DNA from: Streptomyces sp. YPW6
GTDB taxonomy: Bacteria; Actinomycetota; Actinomycetes; Streptomycetales; Streptomycetaceae
Length of the DNA stretch: 64,000 nucleotides
Reading direction: 5' to 3'
Assembly: GCF_018866325.1 (NCBI RefSeq)
Contig: NZ_CP076457.1
Coordinates: 6,173,001 to 6,237,000 of the forward strand
Shown: positions 37,904 through 62,264 of the stretch, piece by piece
Position numbering within the stretch: the stretch's first letter is position 1
How the letters are laid out: each line of letters opens with the position of its first letter
Program-made: the position numbers and the translations under genes
Notes under the pieces: generated by a model
What the model was told of the DNA's origin: nothing
The model's database searches: none
The model's input: the letters and a program-made list of their open reading frames with translations, nothing else

Positions 37904-38125
37904 TCCTGCCGTTCGTCGGAGGCCGCCGCCGACGCTCGCCGCCGCCCGTCCGGTGCCCGCGCGGTGGCGTGCGCCGTTTCCGCCGGCACCGGGCGGGACG
38001 CGCCCGGTGTGTTGCAAGACCGACACGAAAACGGACCGAACCTGCTGCCGCCCGGGGTGGAATGCGTAGGGTGCGGGGAAACCGCACACGGATGGCTGCG
38101 GGGCAATGCCGAGAGGGGACAGCGC

Positions 38126-38704
38126 GTGACGGTCAATATGACCAAGGGGCAGGCCATCAGCCTGGAGAAGACCGACGGGGGGACCCTGACCGCGGTACGC
38201 ATGGGGCTCGGCTGGCAGGCGGCTCCGCGCCGTGGCCTGTTCGGTTCGCGCACCCGTGAGGTCGACCTGGACGCCTCGGCGGTGCTCTTCGCCGACAAGC
38301 AGCCCGTCGACGTCGTGTTCTTCCGCCACCTCGTCAGCGACGACGGCTCGGTCAAGCACACCGGTGACAACCTGGTCGGCGGGGCCGGCTCCGGCGGCGA
38401 CGACGAGGCGATCCTCGTCGACCTCCAGCGCGTCCCGGTCCACATCGACCAGATCGTCTTCACGGTGAACTCCTTCACCGGGCAGACGTTCCAGGAGGTC
38501 CAGAACGCCTTCTGCCGCATCGTCGACGAGACCAACGGCCAGGAGCTCGCCCGGTACACGCTCGACGGCGGCGGCCAGTACACCGCCCAGATCATGGCGA
38601 AGGTGCACCGCGCGGGCAGCGGCTGGAAGATGACGGCCCTCGGGAACCCGGCCAACGGCCGCACCTTCCAGGACCTGATGCCGTCGATCCTTCCGCACCT
38701 GTAG
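38126..38704 (+). CDS. TerD-family stress protein
   Basis: This 192-residue protein is a full-length TerD domain. It starts VTVNMTKGQAISLEK and contains MGLGWQ, REVDLDASAVLF, DDEAILVDLQRVP and VNSFTGQTFQEVQNAFCRIVD, with conserved acidic residues that bind calcium in TerD structures. TerD proteins act in the cytoplasm in tellurite, phage and general stress responses and in Streptomyces affect differentiation. The GTG at 38126 is preceded by GAGAGGGGA and gives the family N-terminus; the longer open frame has no ribosome site. A strong terminator follows at 38747, before the TerD fusion gene. Confidence 0.93.
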   Translation: MTVNMTKGQAISLEKTDGGTLTAVRMGLGWQAAPRRGLFGSRTREVDLDASAVLFADKQPVDVVFFRHLVSDDGSVKHTGDNLVGGAGSGGDDEAILVDLQRVPVHIDQIVFTVNSFTGQTFQEVQNAFCRIVDETNGQELARYTLDGGGQYTAQIMAKVHRAGSGWKMTALGNPANGRTFQDLMPSILPHL

Positions 38705-38887: not shown

Positions 38888-40936
38888 ATGACGGCCGAGC
38901 TGGTCCGGGGGCAGAACCACGTCCTGCCCCAGACCCGTCTGGAGATCCGGGTGTCGGCGGGCACGCCTGTCGTGGCCGGGGCCACCCTCGGCGACGAACG
39001 GGGCACGGTGCACGGCATCGAGTGGATCGCCCACCCCGGCTCGCCCCAGCTCCCCGGGCTCGACGTCTCCCAGCAGGCGGCGGCCGACCACCGGCTGGCC
39101 GTCGATCTGGAGGCCCTGCCCACCGGCGTCCACCGGGTCACCGTGCTGCTCGCGCTGCCCGTCGGAGTCGGCGGCCCGGTGCGGTTCGGCGCCGTCCCCG
39201 CTCCCTTCGTCGCCGTCACCGGAGTCGACGGCACCGGCATCGCCACCTTCACGCTCACCGATCTGGACGCCGAGTCCGCGGTCAGCGCCCTGGAGCTCTA
39301 CCGCCGCCAGGCCGCCTGGAAGGTCCGGGCCGTCGGACAGGGGTATGCGGGCGGGCTCGCCGAGATGCTCGCTGACCAGGGCGTGACCGACGCCGCCGCC
39401 CTGGCCGCCACGGTCCAGGAGGCCGTCGCCCGGGGCCTGACCCGCGCGGTGGCCCCGCCACCGCCCCGGACTCCGGAAGGCGACCGCGTACGGCACGCGA
39501 CGGGCTCCGCCGACCTCCGTCCGACCGCGCCGCCCCCGGCCCCGGGGACTCCCGGGCCGCCGGCCGACCCGGCCACCACCGGAGCGACGCCCGCCACCCG
39601 GCCGCAGGGCCCCTCCGGCCCGGCGCACACCACTCAGCCGCACAGCACCCAGCCGCGCACCGCCCCCGGACCGGCTGCCGCGGGGACTCCCACCGCGGGA
39701 TCCTCCACCGGAGGGCCCATCGACTACGTGCACCCGCGGCGACAGCACGCCGCGCCCCCCACTCCGCCTCCCAGCGCGCCCCCCGCCCAGCCGGGACAGC
39801 CCGCTCAGCCGGTTGCGGGTGACGCCACCGGCTGGTCGATGGACGAGCGCCTCTACAACCAGATCTGGGGCATGTTCGAGGATCTGGCCCGCGCCGTCGC
39901 CGCCCACCGCAGCGCCGTGGACTTCGCCGAGTCCCGGATGGACCAGGAGCTCGACCGCGCCCTGTCCGACCCGCGCAACCGGATCGGCGGTGCGGGCGAC
40001 CACGCCCGCGAGGCGGCCCGTGCCAAGCGCGACGAGCTGGCCTCCCGGGCCCGGGAGGCCCTCGACCGGGATCTGGACCAGCTGTCCGCCGAGGCGGCCG
40101 TCGTCGAGCCCGCGCTCCCGGCGGCGTACGCCGGCTGGGGCAACCCCGTCTGGCACGCCCACCGCATCCCCATGGAGATGCCGATGGCCCTGCGCATCGG
40201 AGATCTTCATCTGCCCGAGCGCACCGACCTGCGTATCCCGCTGCTCGTCCGGCTGCCCCTGGAGCGCGGGATGTGGGTGGACAGTGGCCGGACCGCGTCC
40301 GAGGCCGCCGCCGTCATCGAGCCGGACCGGCTGCGCGGCCGGGCGATGGAGACCGCGGTCGCCCACGCGGCCCGGCTGCTGGCGGTGTACCCGCCCGGGG
40401 AGTTCGCGGTACACGTCATCGACCCCGCGGGGTCGGCGGCGGGCCCCCTCGCACCGCTGGTCGACGCGGGCGTCCTCGCCGGACCGCCCGCCGCCGGGCC
40501 CGGGGGAGTGGCCTCGGTTCTCGCCCACCTCACCCGGCGGGTGGACCTGGTGCAGATGGCGGTGCGGGGCGGGGCGGCCGACTCGCTCCCGCCCGACCTG
40601 GACACCGGCGAGCAGCTCCTGGTCGTCAACGACTTCCCCCACGGCTTTGACGACCGCGCCGTCACCCAGCTCCGCTACCTCGCCGACGAGGGACCGGCGG
40701 TCGGGGTGCACCTCCTGATGGTCGCGGACCGGGAGGAGGCCCGTGCGTACGGGCCGGTCCTCGATCCGCTGTGGCGTTCGCTGCTGCGGATCACCCCGGT
40801 CGCCGACAACCACCTCGCCGACCCCTGGGTCGGGCACGCCTGGACGTACGAGCCGCTGACGATCCCGCAGGGCAGCCGCGTCCTGGAGCAGGTCCTGGCC
40901 GCGGTGGCAGCGGCCCGCAGAGCCGCCGGCCGCTGA
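38888..40936 (+). CDS. TerD-domain fusion protein with a degenerate FtsK-like region
   Basis: This 682-residue protein starts with a TerD domain (residues 1-180: LVRGQNHVLPQTRLEIRV, GIEWIAHPGSPQLPGLDV, FTLTDLDAESAVSALELYRR). Residues about 188-315 are a Pro/Ala/Thr-rich linker. A charged, helical, probably coiled-coil stretch follows (residues 330-410, RSAVDFAESRMDQELDRAL, REAARAKRDELASRAREAL). The last 270 residues resemble the FtsK/SpoIIIE-type region found in Ter-system and secretion ATPases: LLVVNDFPHGFDD at the Walker B position and GVHLLMVADREEA after it. No Walker A motif is present in IPLLVRLPLERGMWVDSGRT, so ATP hydrolysis is doubtful. It probably works with TerD and TerC in metal or envelope stress. 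Confidence 0.83.
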   Translation: MTAELVRGQNHVLPQTRLEIRVSAGTPVVAGATLGDERGTVHGIEWIAHPGSPQLPGLDVSQQAAADHRLAVDLEALPTGVHRVTVLLALPVGVGGPVRFGAVPAPFVAVTGVDGTGIATFTLTDLDAESAVSALELYRRQAAWKVRAVGQGYAGGLAEMLADQGVTDAAALAATVQEAVARGLTRAVAPPPPRTPEGDRVRHATGSADLRPTAPPPAPGTPGPPADPATTGATPATRPQGPSGPAHTTQPHSTQPRTAPGPAAAGTPTAGSSTGGPIDYVHPRRQHAAPPTPPPSAPPAQPGQPAQPVAGDATGWSMDERLYNQIWGMFEDLARAVAAHRSAVDFAESRMDQELDRALSDPRNRIGGAGDHAREAARAKRDELASRAREALDRDLDQLSAEAAVVEPALPAAYAGWGNPVWHAHRIPMEMPMALRIGDLHLPERTDLRIPLLVRLPLERGMWVDSGRTASEAAAVIEPDRLRGRAMETAVAHAARLLAVYPPGEFAVHVIDPAGSAAGPLAPLVDAGVLAGPPAAGPGGVASVLAHLTRRVDLVQMAVRGGAADSLPPDLDTGEQLLVVNDFPHGFDDRAVTQLRYLADEGPAVGVHLLMVADREEARAYGPVLDPLWRSLLRITPVADNHLADPWVGHAWTYEPLTIPQGSRVLEQVLAAVAAARRAAGR

Positions 40937-40987
40937 CCGGTCGAACCGCCCCGACCTGGCGTTTTGGCGATCCCTTTACCCTTTTCT

Positions 40988-41016
40988 TTACCAAACCTTG
41001 GTGATGCCTGTACTCT
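40988..41016 (+). promoter_or_regulatory. Promoter of the terC riboswitch transcript
   Basis: TTACCA and TACTCT lie 17 bases apart in an unusually AT-rich patch. The start site would be close to 41022, just before the riboswitch aptamer. Confidence 0.55.
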
Positions 41017-41025
41017 TCGGAGAAC

Positions 41026-41129
41026 GGAGGGGAGTACTCCTTACGCGACGTACCCGTCAATACGGACCGCAGTCGGTCCCGGGGCGTCGGTCCAGGCGTG
41101 CACGGCACGCAGGGATGGAAGAGACCTCC
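41026..41129 (+). ncRNA. yybP-ykoY manganese riboswitch before terC
   Basis: The RNA has the three conserved blocks of the Mn2+ riboswitch: GGGGAGUA at the 5' side, CCGUCAAUACGG in the middle (CGUCAAUUCG in the Lactococcus example) and GAGACCUCC at the 3' side. Helix P1 pairs GGAGG at 41026-41030 with CCUCC at 41125-41129. The bases 41125-41134 are also complementary to 41165-41174, which contain the terC Shine-Dalgarno sequence. P1 and the sequestering hairpin therefore cannot both form. TerC/MntP-type manganese export genes are the usual targets of this riboswitch. Confidence 0.88.
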
Positions 41130-41174
41130 GGCAGCGACGACGCTGATTCAGTAGCCGTAGCGAACTGCCGGAGG
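41125..41174 (+). promoter_or_regulatory. Shine-Dalgarno sequestering hairpin of the terC riboswitch
   Basis: CCTCCGGCAG (41125-41134) and CTGCCGGAGG (41165-41174) form a perfect 10-base stem with a 30-base loop. The right arm ends in GGAGG four bases before the GTG start. Without Mn2+ this stem would hide the ribosome site; with Mn2+ the left arm is taken into P1. Confidence 0.8.
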
Positions 41175-41178
41175 CGCA

Positions 41179-42195
41179 GTGGACGTTTCATGGACCGTAT
41201 GGGCCCTGACCATCGTTGGTCTGTCGGCCCTCATCGCCGTCGACTTCTTCATCGGGCGCAAGCCCCATGACGTGTCGACCAAGGAAGCCGGGATCTGGAC
41301 GGTCGTCTGGATCGCGCTGGCCATCCTCTTCGGGATCGGCCTCATGGTCGTCGGCGAGAGCCAGGCCTCCGGTGAGTTCTTCGCCGGATTCATCACCGAG
41401 AAGTCGCTGAGCGTCGACAACCTCTTCGTCTTCGTCCTGATCATGGCGAAGTTCTCGGTGCCCTCGCACCTCCAGCAGCGTGTGCTGCTGATCGGTGTGC
41501 TCATCGCCCTGGTGCTCCGGGCGATCTTCATCGCCGCGGGTGCCGCCGTGATCGCGAACTTCTCGTGGGTGTTCTACATCTTCGGCGCGTTCCTGATCTA
41601 CACCGCCTGGAAGCTCATCCAGGAGGCCCGTGCCGGCGAGGAGGAAGAGGAGTTCGAGGAGAACCGCCTCCTCAAGAAGATCGAGCAGCGTTTCGGCGTC
41701 GCCGACCAGTACCACGGCACGAAGCTCTTCATCCAGAAGAACGGCAAGCGCATCATGACGCCCCTGATGGTGGTCATGCTCGCCATCGGTATGACCGACG
41801 TGCTGTTCGCCCTGGACTCCATCCCGGCGATCTTCGGCCTGACCCAGGACCCGTACATCGTCTTCACGGCCAACGCGTTCGCGCTGATGGGCCTGCGTCA
41901 GCTGTACTTCCTCATCGGCGGTCTGCTGAAGAAGCTGGTCCACCTCAGCTACGGCCTGTCGGTGATCCTCGGCTTCATCGGCGTCAAGCTGGTGCTGCAC
42001 GCCCTGCACGAGTCCGGGGTGCACACGCCCGAGATCTCCATCCCGTTCTCGCTCTCCGTCATCTGCGGTGTCCTGGTGATCACCACGATCACCAGCCTCA
42101 TCGCGAGCAAGAAGCAGGCGGCGGCCGAGGCGGAGGAGGCCGCGAAGGCCGAGACCGCGGGCTCCGCCGACGAGGAGAGCAAGACCCTCAACTGA
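41179..42195 (+). CDS. terC: TerC-family membrane protein, probable Mn2+ exporter
   Basis: This 338-residue protein has about nine membrane helices of the TerC/Alx type. Conserved acidic residues inside helices are visible in ALIAVDFFIGRKPHDVS, ITEKSLSVDNLFVFVLIM and MTDVLFALDSIPAIFG, which form the probable metal path. A charged cytoplasmic loop EEEEEFEENRLLKKIEQRFG splits the two halves, and the C-terminus is Ala/Glu-rich. Members export manganese and protect against metal and alkaline stress; TerC is also part of tellurite resistance loci. The GTG at 41179 has GGAGG four bases upstream, and that site is masked by the riboswitch hairpin. A terminator follows at 42234. Confidence 0.95.
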   Translation: MDVSWTVWALTIVGLSALIAVDFFIGRKPHDVSTKEAGIWTVVWIALAILFGIGLMVVGESQASGEFFAGFITEKSLSVDNLFVFVLIMAKFSVPSHLQQRVLLIGVLIALVLRAIFIAAGAAVIANFSWVFYIFGAFLIYTAWKLIQEARAGEEEEEFEENRLLKKIEQRFGVADQYHGTKLFIQKNGKRIMTPLMVVMLAIGMTDVLFALDSIPAIFGLTQDPYIVFTANAFALMGLRQLYFLIGGLLKKLVHLSYGLSVILGFIGVKLVLHALHESGVHTPEISIPFSLSVICGVLVITTITSLIASKKQAAAEAEEAAKAETAGSADEESKTLN

Positions 42196-60493: not shown

Positions 60494-60605
60494 TATCGCG
60501 TTCCCGCGCCACCCTCCTCCTCCACGCCGCCGGCCTCCTCGATCAATTAGGTTGGAGGGGCAGCGGGGATGCTGATGACGAGTGAGAAGTGGGCTGATAT
60601 CCCGG

Positions 60606-62264
60606 ATGAACGCAGCAAGCCGAACCAAGCTCAACCAGACGCCCGAGTGGACGGCTCTCGCCAAGCACCGTGAGGAGTTCGGCGCGCCCCAGCTGCGCGA
60701 GCTGTTCGCGCGGCAGCCGGACCGGGGCACCGCCTACACCCTGCGGGTCGGCGACCTCCACCTCGACTACTCCAAGCACCTGGTCACCGACGAGACGCTG
60801 CGCCTGCTGCGCGAGCTCGCCGCCGCCACCGGGGTCGCGGAGCTGCGGGACGCCATGTTCCGCGGCGAGAAGATCAACACCACCGAGGACCGGGCCGTCC
60901 TGCACACCGCGCTCCGCGCCCCGCGCGACGCGGTCGTCGAGGTCGACGGCGAGAACGTCGTGCCGGCGGTGCACGCCGTCCTGGACAAGATGGCCTCCTT
61001 CGCCGACCAGGTCCGCTCCGGGCAGTGGACCGGCCACACCGGCAAGCCCGTCAAGAACATCGTCAACATCGGCATCGGCGGCTCCGACCTCGGCCCCGCC
61101 ATGGCCTACGAGGTGCTGCGCTCCTTCACGGACCGCGACCTCACCCTCCGCTTCGTCTCCAACGTCGACGGCGCCGACCTCCACGAGGCCGTCCGCGACC
61201 TCGACCCGGCCGAGACGCTCTTCGTCATCGCCTCGAAGACGTTCACGACGATCGAGACCATCACCAACGCCACCTCCGCCCGGGACTGGCTGCTCACCGA
61301 ACTGAGGGCCGGTCAGGACGCCGTCGCGAAGCACTTCGTTGCGCTGTCGACCAACGCCGAGAAGGTCGAAGAGTTCGGCATCGACACGGCCAACATGTTC
61401 GAGTTCTGGGACTGGGTCGGCGGCCGCTACAGCTACGACTCGGCGATCGGCCTCTCGCTGATGGTCGCCATCGGCCCGGACCGCTTCCGCGAGATGCTGG
61501 AGGGCTTCCACCTCGTCGACGAGCACTTCCGCACGGCCCCCGCCGAGCGGAACGCCCCCCTTCTGCTGGGCCTCCTCGGGGTCTGGTACGGCAACTTCTT
61601 CGACGCCCAGTCCCACGCGGTGCTGCCCTACAGCCACTACCTGTCCAAGTTCACCGCGTATCTCCAGCAGCTCGACATGGAGTCCAACGGCAAGTCCGTC
61701 GACCGCGAGGGCGACCGCGTGGACTGGCAGACCGGTCCGGTCGTCTGGGGCACGCCCGGCACCAACGGGCAGCACGCCTACTACCAGTTGATCCACCAGG
61801 GCACCAAGCTGATCCCGGCGGACTTCATCGGCTTCGCCGCCCCGGTCCACGACCTGCTGCCCGGCCTGATCGCCCAGCACGACCTGCTGATGGCCAACTT
61901 CTTCGCGCAGACGCAGGCCCTGGCCTTCGGCAAGACGCCCGAGGAGGTCCGGGCCGAGGGCGTGCCCGAGGAGCTGGTCCCGCACAAGACGTTCCGCGGC
62001 AACCACCCCACGACGACGATCCTCGCCGACAAGCTGACCCCCTCGGTCCTCGGCCAGCTCATCGCGCTGTACGAGCACAAGGTCTTCGTCCAGGGCGCCA
62101 TCTGGAACATCGACTCCTTCGACCAGTGGGGCGTCGAACTCGGCAAGGTCCTCGCGAAGAAGATCGAGCCGCTGCTGACCGGTGACGGAAGCACGGACGC
62201 CGGGCAGCTCGACAGCTCCACCGCCGCCCTGGTCGACGCCTACCGCACCCTGCGCGGACGCTGA
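60606..62264 (+). CDS. pgi: Glucose-6-phosphate isomerase
   Basis: This 552-residue enzyme interconverts glucose 6-phosphate and fructose 6-phosphate. Conserved segments are [41 protein letters not shown] (phosphate binding), [17 protein letters not shown], and the catalytic Glu region [12 protein letters not shown] and [18 protein letters not shown]. The start ATG at 60606 gives [18 protein letters not shown], the family N-terminus in Streptomyces. It has no clear Shine-Dalgarno sequence; GGAGGGG lies about 40 bases upstream. An ATG eight codons earlier is possible. The next gene starts four bases after its stop. Confidence 0.97.

Follow-up and report, generated by a model that had tools for sequence, protein, structure and literature searches.

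A putative manganese-responsive yybP-ykoY riboswitch with a Shine-Dalgarno-hiding stem in the terC leader of Streptomyces

The leader of terC in Streptomyces sp. YPW6 is very probably a yybP-ykoY-class riboswitch that senses Mn2+ and activates the translation of terC, where the ligand and the switching are what we infer, and it is well supported as an additional member, missed by current Rfam, of a known Mn2+ riboswitch class. The window, which denotes the whole analysed stretch of 64 kb, belongs to a 7.7 Mb genome in one contig. On its forward strand, terC occupies 41179-42195, starts with GTG and encodes 338 aa (ORF listing), with a TerC domain (PF03741) recognised by Pfam at 179 bits. Two genes with a TerD domain (PF02342; ORF listing and Pfam) are located directly upstream, at 37964-38704 and 38888-40936, and we take uvrB to be their neighbour. 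A probable terC promoter is located at 40987-41016 on the same strand as terC, with a -35-like TTTACC (40987-40992), an 18-nt spacer and a -10-like TACTCT (41011-41016), and the transcript start is expected near 41020-41025. A scan of the terC upstream region for the TTGACA/TATAAT consensus returned no site; the CTTTAC, TTGG and GTA blocks of the promoter region are kept in the alignment of 30 Streptomyces, and the placement was helped by two loci (L155 and L166) where the promoter motif abuts the GTG of terC directly. The blocks of the leader follow in the order GGAGG (41026-41030), GGGGAGUA (41029-41036), GUCAAUACGG (41056-41065), CCCGG (41078-41082), GAGACC (41121-41126), CCUCCGGCAG (41125-41134), CUGCCGGAGG (41165-41174) and the GTG at 41179.

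A yybP-ykoY-type Mn2+ aptamer lacking helix P2 was delimited at 41025-41130 on the forward strand, as indicated by two covariance models and by covariation in 61 sequences. The initial annotation had set the aptamer at 41026-41129 with three conserved blocks; all the blocks are present, while the bounds had to be shifted by a base. P1 is formed by GGAGG (41026-41030) with CCUCC (41125-41129) and is extended by the pair C41025-G41130, with CGGAGG (41025-41030) as the 5' strand of P1.1 and 41125-41130 as its partner, and this helix covaries outside Streptomyces. Bases 41130-41134, formerly read as the CCUCC of P1, are in fact the distal half of the anti-Shine-Dalgarno (anti-SD) strand. The 5' side of L1, GGAGUA (41031-41036), has each base identical in 60 or 61 of the 61 sequences, and within its 3' side, GAGA (41121-41124), positions 41122-41124 are identical in all 61. 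P1.2 pairs UCC (41038-41040) with GGA (41117-41119), the P3 arm (41046-41089) comprises P3.1 (41046-41050/41085-41089) and P3.2 (41064-41067/41076-41079), which are marked by covariation, and the P4 hairpin (41090-41116) is closed at its base by 41090-41093/41113-41116. L3 lies within the P3 arm at 41055-41063 and 41080-41082, and its A41059, found in 60 of the 61 sequences with a gap in the remaining one, corresponds by analogy to the adenosine that, in crystal structures of the class, contacts Mn2+ through its N7 (PMC6754395). Helix P2 of the four-way junction is absent, with five bases between P1.2 and P3 in the window's element and about 3-9 across Streptomyces; because a three-way junction has been described for a Streptococcus member of the class (PMC9495176), P2 was not treated as a class requirement. 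The claim that the structure could be drawn without gap or guess was too strong, since there is no P2 and, in the minimum fold without ligand, the L1 strand is paired locally.

Little or no variation is seen in L1, L3 and the 3' block, either among the 30 Streptomyces or among the 61 actinobacterial sequences. Within Streptomyces alone, P1 and P1.2 are invariant and both partners vary in just three pairs, so that covariation inside the genus was counted as conservation support and was not decisive, and the comparison was widened to actinobacteria. Across the 61 sequences, 93% of the pair cells are standard and both partners vary in 19 of the 24 aptamer pairs, giving 231 both-side-change cells against 71 in shuffled and 9-49 in slid controls, a margin that is large even though fitting the alignment to the structure gives the count an advantage. 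P1.2 is paired in 97.8% of cells, with a U-A to C-G exchange in 26 of the 61 sequences, and P4 in 98.3%, with all four pairs varying on both sides. Judged from this alignment, all five aptamer helices covary across actinobacteria. The aptamer also folds better than expected (z = -3.1), as none of 200 shuffles was as good.

The class assignment was examined with covariance models, and differential outcomes were observed. The Rfam model RF00080 (Rfam 15) matched nothing in the 64-kb window at its gathering threshold, nor anything in the terC leader at E up to 10; its sole match in the whole genome was the leader of a GDT1-family gene (L138; 19.8 bits, E 0.0066), not the terC leader. This search had been named by the initial annotation as a refuting test, and the same model under-scores the E. 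coli mntP riboswitch, which reaches 41.6 bits against the model's own cut-off of 45, so that an RF00080 score is not family-defining in practice. The model passes its cut-off in one of 297 actinobacterial genomes and thus reaches poorly into this phylum. Aligned to L031:662-758, RF00080 (Rfam 15) displays a consensus with a long 3' filler and a structure line without P1 pairing. Two further models were built, R1 from 30 Streptomyces terC leaders, with the window's own sequence included, and R2 from 20 GDT1 leaders without any terC leader. R2 ranks the terC leader as its best match in the 64-kb window (41025-41131, 31.6 bits; next 13.8), matches the E. coli mntP riboswitch at 19.7 bits and recovers RF00080-detected loci in place, the best two at 35.9 and 33.9 bits. 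With R1, the window's terC leader, itself among the 30 sequences of the model, scores 104.7 bits and the GDT1 leader 46.1 bits, and several RF00080 loci are matched in place with lower scores. The sequence models thereby support that the terC leader belongs to the yybP-ykoY Mn2+ riboswitch class, in agreement with the earlier assignment. A second R1 match in the window, at 61364-61452 (22.9 bits), was rejected as chance, being inside the long coding frame 60582-62264 (presumably glucose-6-phosphate isomerase) and without core blocks, and the R1 matches L104, L105, L108 and L109 (E 0.07 to 0.7) were discarded for incomplete core blocks.

It could be argued that the leader is a plain hairpin hiding the Shine-Dalgarno (SD) sequence, or a decayed leader, whose likeness to the aptamer arose by chance, as RF00080 is without score at the site and three related leaders (L154, L161 and L165) lack the core but retain P1 and the SD stem. 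This seems hardly credible, for a plain hairpin leaves the R2 match, the conservation of the loops and the covariation of P1.2, P3 and P4 unexplained.

Likenesses to known members of the class were also observed. The E. coli mntP riboswitch, of the RF00080 class, shares with the window's element the L1 sequence GGGGAGUA, the UCA...CGG of L3, the GAGACC block, the helix order P1, P3, P4 and the match by R2, whereas the window's element differs from the RF00080 class in lacking P2 and in being unscored by RF00080, and its L3 belongs to the shorter UCAAUAC type, the E. coli L3 being UCAACAUAC. The terC leader of another actinobacterium, Corynebacterium glutamicum (cg2157), is of the same class with the same kind of downstream gene, and it was reported at 49 bits with an earlier Rfam release, its transcript being seen by RNA-seq (PMC3890552). 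In the Lactococcus lactis Mn2+ riboswitch, P1.1 is the switch helix stabilised by Mn2+, to which the P1.1 of the window can be likened, and its L3 UCAAUUC resembles the UCAAUAC of the window (PMC6754395, PMC11087558); the L. lactis element controls an intrinsic terminator, whereas the competing stem in the window contains the SD. The Mn2+/Ca2+ riboswitch of Streptococcus pneumoniae mgtA has been described with a three-way junction (PMC9495176), as expected for the window's element, and differs in that it is described as acting on mgtA transcription.

The switch region follows directly on the aptamer. The switch strand CCUCCGGCAG (41125-41134) has its first six bases as the 3' strand of P1.1 and all ten as the anti-SD, and it matches the reverse complement of CUGCCGGAGG (41165-41174) at every base, so that the perfect 10-bp stem with the SD region described in the initial annotation was recovered, as was the SD core GGAGG (41170-41174) four bases 5' of the GTG (41179-41181). 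P1 and the anti-SD/SD stem are mutually exclusive because six bases, CCUCCG (41125-41130), are common to both, which bears out the earlier reading of competing pairings. The stem folds at -24.6 kcal/mol (z = -4.1; 0 of 200 shuffles as good). Without Mn2+, CCUCCGGCAG would pair with CUGCCGGAGG and hide the SD; with Mn2+ present, L1 and L3 would dock and P1 would be held, CCUCC would be taken into P1, GGAGG would be exposed and TerC would be made at high Mn2+. In folding calculations, the SD-hidden fold was favoured in the ligand-free state by 5.7 kcal/mol (MFE) or 7.9 kcal/mol (ensemble), with an SD pairing probability of about 1, whereas with the aptamer imposed on the fold four of the five SD bases became 63-75% free and the bases between the SD and the start codon remained partly paired. 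As the SD is predicted to be hidden without ligand and freed with the aptamer imposed, Mn2+ holding P1 would switch terC on, a direction that agrees with reports for the class (PMC11087558, PMC6754395). The aptamer-constrained fold also displays a possible small hairpin, CAGCG-ACGA-CGCUG (41132-41145), that might keep the distal anti-SD occupied when the switch is on, and its sequence GCGACGACGCUG is nearly invariant in Streptomyces.

Natural variation points to the same pairing. In 52 non-Streptomyces loci, where start codons were chosen from the reading frame and the fit to the 16S tail with the leader ignored, the duplexes of each anti-SD with its own SD region averaged -18.2 kcal/mol, compared with -14.4 kcal/mol for the SD regions of other species, and none of 2000 permutations of the partners reached the native mean energy, a count that is not a strict probability as the species are related and not independent. 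The duplex comparison is a better test than a fixed-register column count, which misplaces the stem at loci with an SD core other than GGAGG; the column counts show G-C to A-U exchanges in P1 of the non-Streptomyces set. Matched changes were observed in L134 (P1 GAAGG, switch strand CCUUCGGCA, SD side UGCCGAAGG), in L088 and L128 (SD = GAAGG), and as the matched pairs CCUCGAACA/UGUUCGAGG in L125, CCUCAGAC/GUCUGAGG in L146 and CCUCCAGC/GCUGGAGG in L119; in L118, L121, L139, L144 and L152, the anti-SD/SD pairing was weak or absent with the automatic choice of start site. By these comparisons the anti-SD/SD stem covaries across actinobacteria, and the matched changes that occur naturally in P1, anti-SD and SD provide ready-made pairs for tests of SD release.

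The same Mn2+ aptamer might instead control transcription, with the stem 41125-41174 acting as a terminator that lacks a U-tract or with the untranslated transcript being exposed to Rho. Terminators without U-tracts are reported in actinobacteria. The stem is strong at the above energy, and antitermination is the mode of control of the class member in L. lactis (PMC11087558). However, a scan of 40930-41300 for intrinsic terminators with a U-tract found no terminator-like site, the stem includes the SD, and changes on the SD side track the switch strand across species as SD release predicts, so that transcriptional control is considered improbable. The covariation of P1 and of the anti-SD/SD stem, together with the terminator scan, thus favours a translational switch before terC, as was initially suggested.

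Mn2+ is the probable ligand by analogy with the class, and its binding would shift the balance between the two folds; TerC presumably exports Mn2+ or passes it to exported enzymes. There is only a slight chance that the yybP-ykoY fold responds mainly to another ion or signal, such as Ca2+ or pH via metal levels: a Streptococcus member has been described as binding Ca2+ besides Mn2+ (PMC9495176), but the published class members respond to Mn2+, the metal-contacting adenosine and the loops are conserved here, and the class also precedes GDT1 and P-type ATPase genes, which fits Mn2+ export.

Within the host's order, 231 of 247 genomes, covering seven of eight genera, carry the element recognised by R1, as do 39 of the 297 genomes surveyed phylum-wide; both counts are lower bounds, since the genome search missed the GDT1 leader, which reaches 46 bits in a direct search. 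Most species of a genus that is a major source of antibiotics would thus carry a Mn2+ switch on terC, overlooked by Rfam-based annotation, and the main text of the Streptomyces transcriptome papers examined makes no mention of a Streptomyces Mn2+ riboswitch. Outside Streptomyces, the element precedes TerC genes of 36-74% identity and also a P-type ATPase gene recognised by Pfam (L123), and the genes downstream of L127, L134 and L136 are presumably P-type ATPases as well. R1 matches at L106:1501-1602 and L107:1501-1635 precede small, probably membrane, proteins, the former without a Pfam match, which may be unrecognised members of a Mn2+ regulon. Another match, L118:1501-1595 (65.9 bits with R1), precedes a 283-aa protein without a Pfam match and has no clear anti-SD/SD stem.

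A second yybP-ykoY-type leader was observed in the host genome outside the window, before a GDT1-family (PF01169) gene (L138, G000:C1:938221-938329), and a similar element precedes GDT1 homologues in most relatives examined, so that the terC switch would be paired with a second one on GDT1. The two leaders are of the same class, and P2 is also absent from the GDT1 leader by sequence reading, whereas the L3 of the latter, GUCGACACACUG, is nearer the E. coli and X. oryzae type, and its aptamer is followed by a long leader with no evident SD pairing.

Sixteen genomes of the order have no R1 match; 15 of these belong to the same genus as the window and one to a different genus within the family. 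Thirteen of them carry a terC of 70-83% identity without the aptamer (leaders L154-L166), two have a distant TerC only (38-41% identity) and one has no TerC. Differential forms of loss were observed among these 13 leaders: CGGAGG...CCUCCGGCAG and the SD stem are kept in L154, L161 and L165, where the core is replaced by an unrelated insert; a remnant that is shortened but includes the SD stem is kept in L159, L160 and L162; the SD-proximal part alone is kept in L156-L158; L163 and L164 have a different terC leader; and the terC mRNAs of L155 and L166 are probably leaderless, as the conserved promoter lies directly before the GTG. On the TerC tree, whose bootstrap support is rough, the losses are clustered and do not represent a single event, the shortened form making up one clade and the two leaderless cases lying apart. 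More tentatively, Streptomyces might possess two Mn2+ riboswitches that differ in L3 (L. lactis-like for terC, X. oryzae-like for GDT1) and in Mn2+ set-point, along with lineages that cut out the terC core and keep the P1/SD platform sensor-less and others that became leaderless, which together would represent stepwise loss of a riboswitch, a picture that we regard as possible rather than likely. Several of the aptamer-less genomes retain the GDT1 element, and the aptamer-less species offer natural controls for the worth of the switch.
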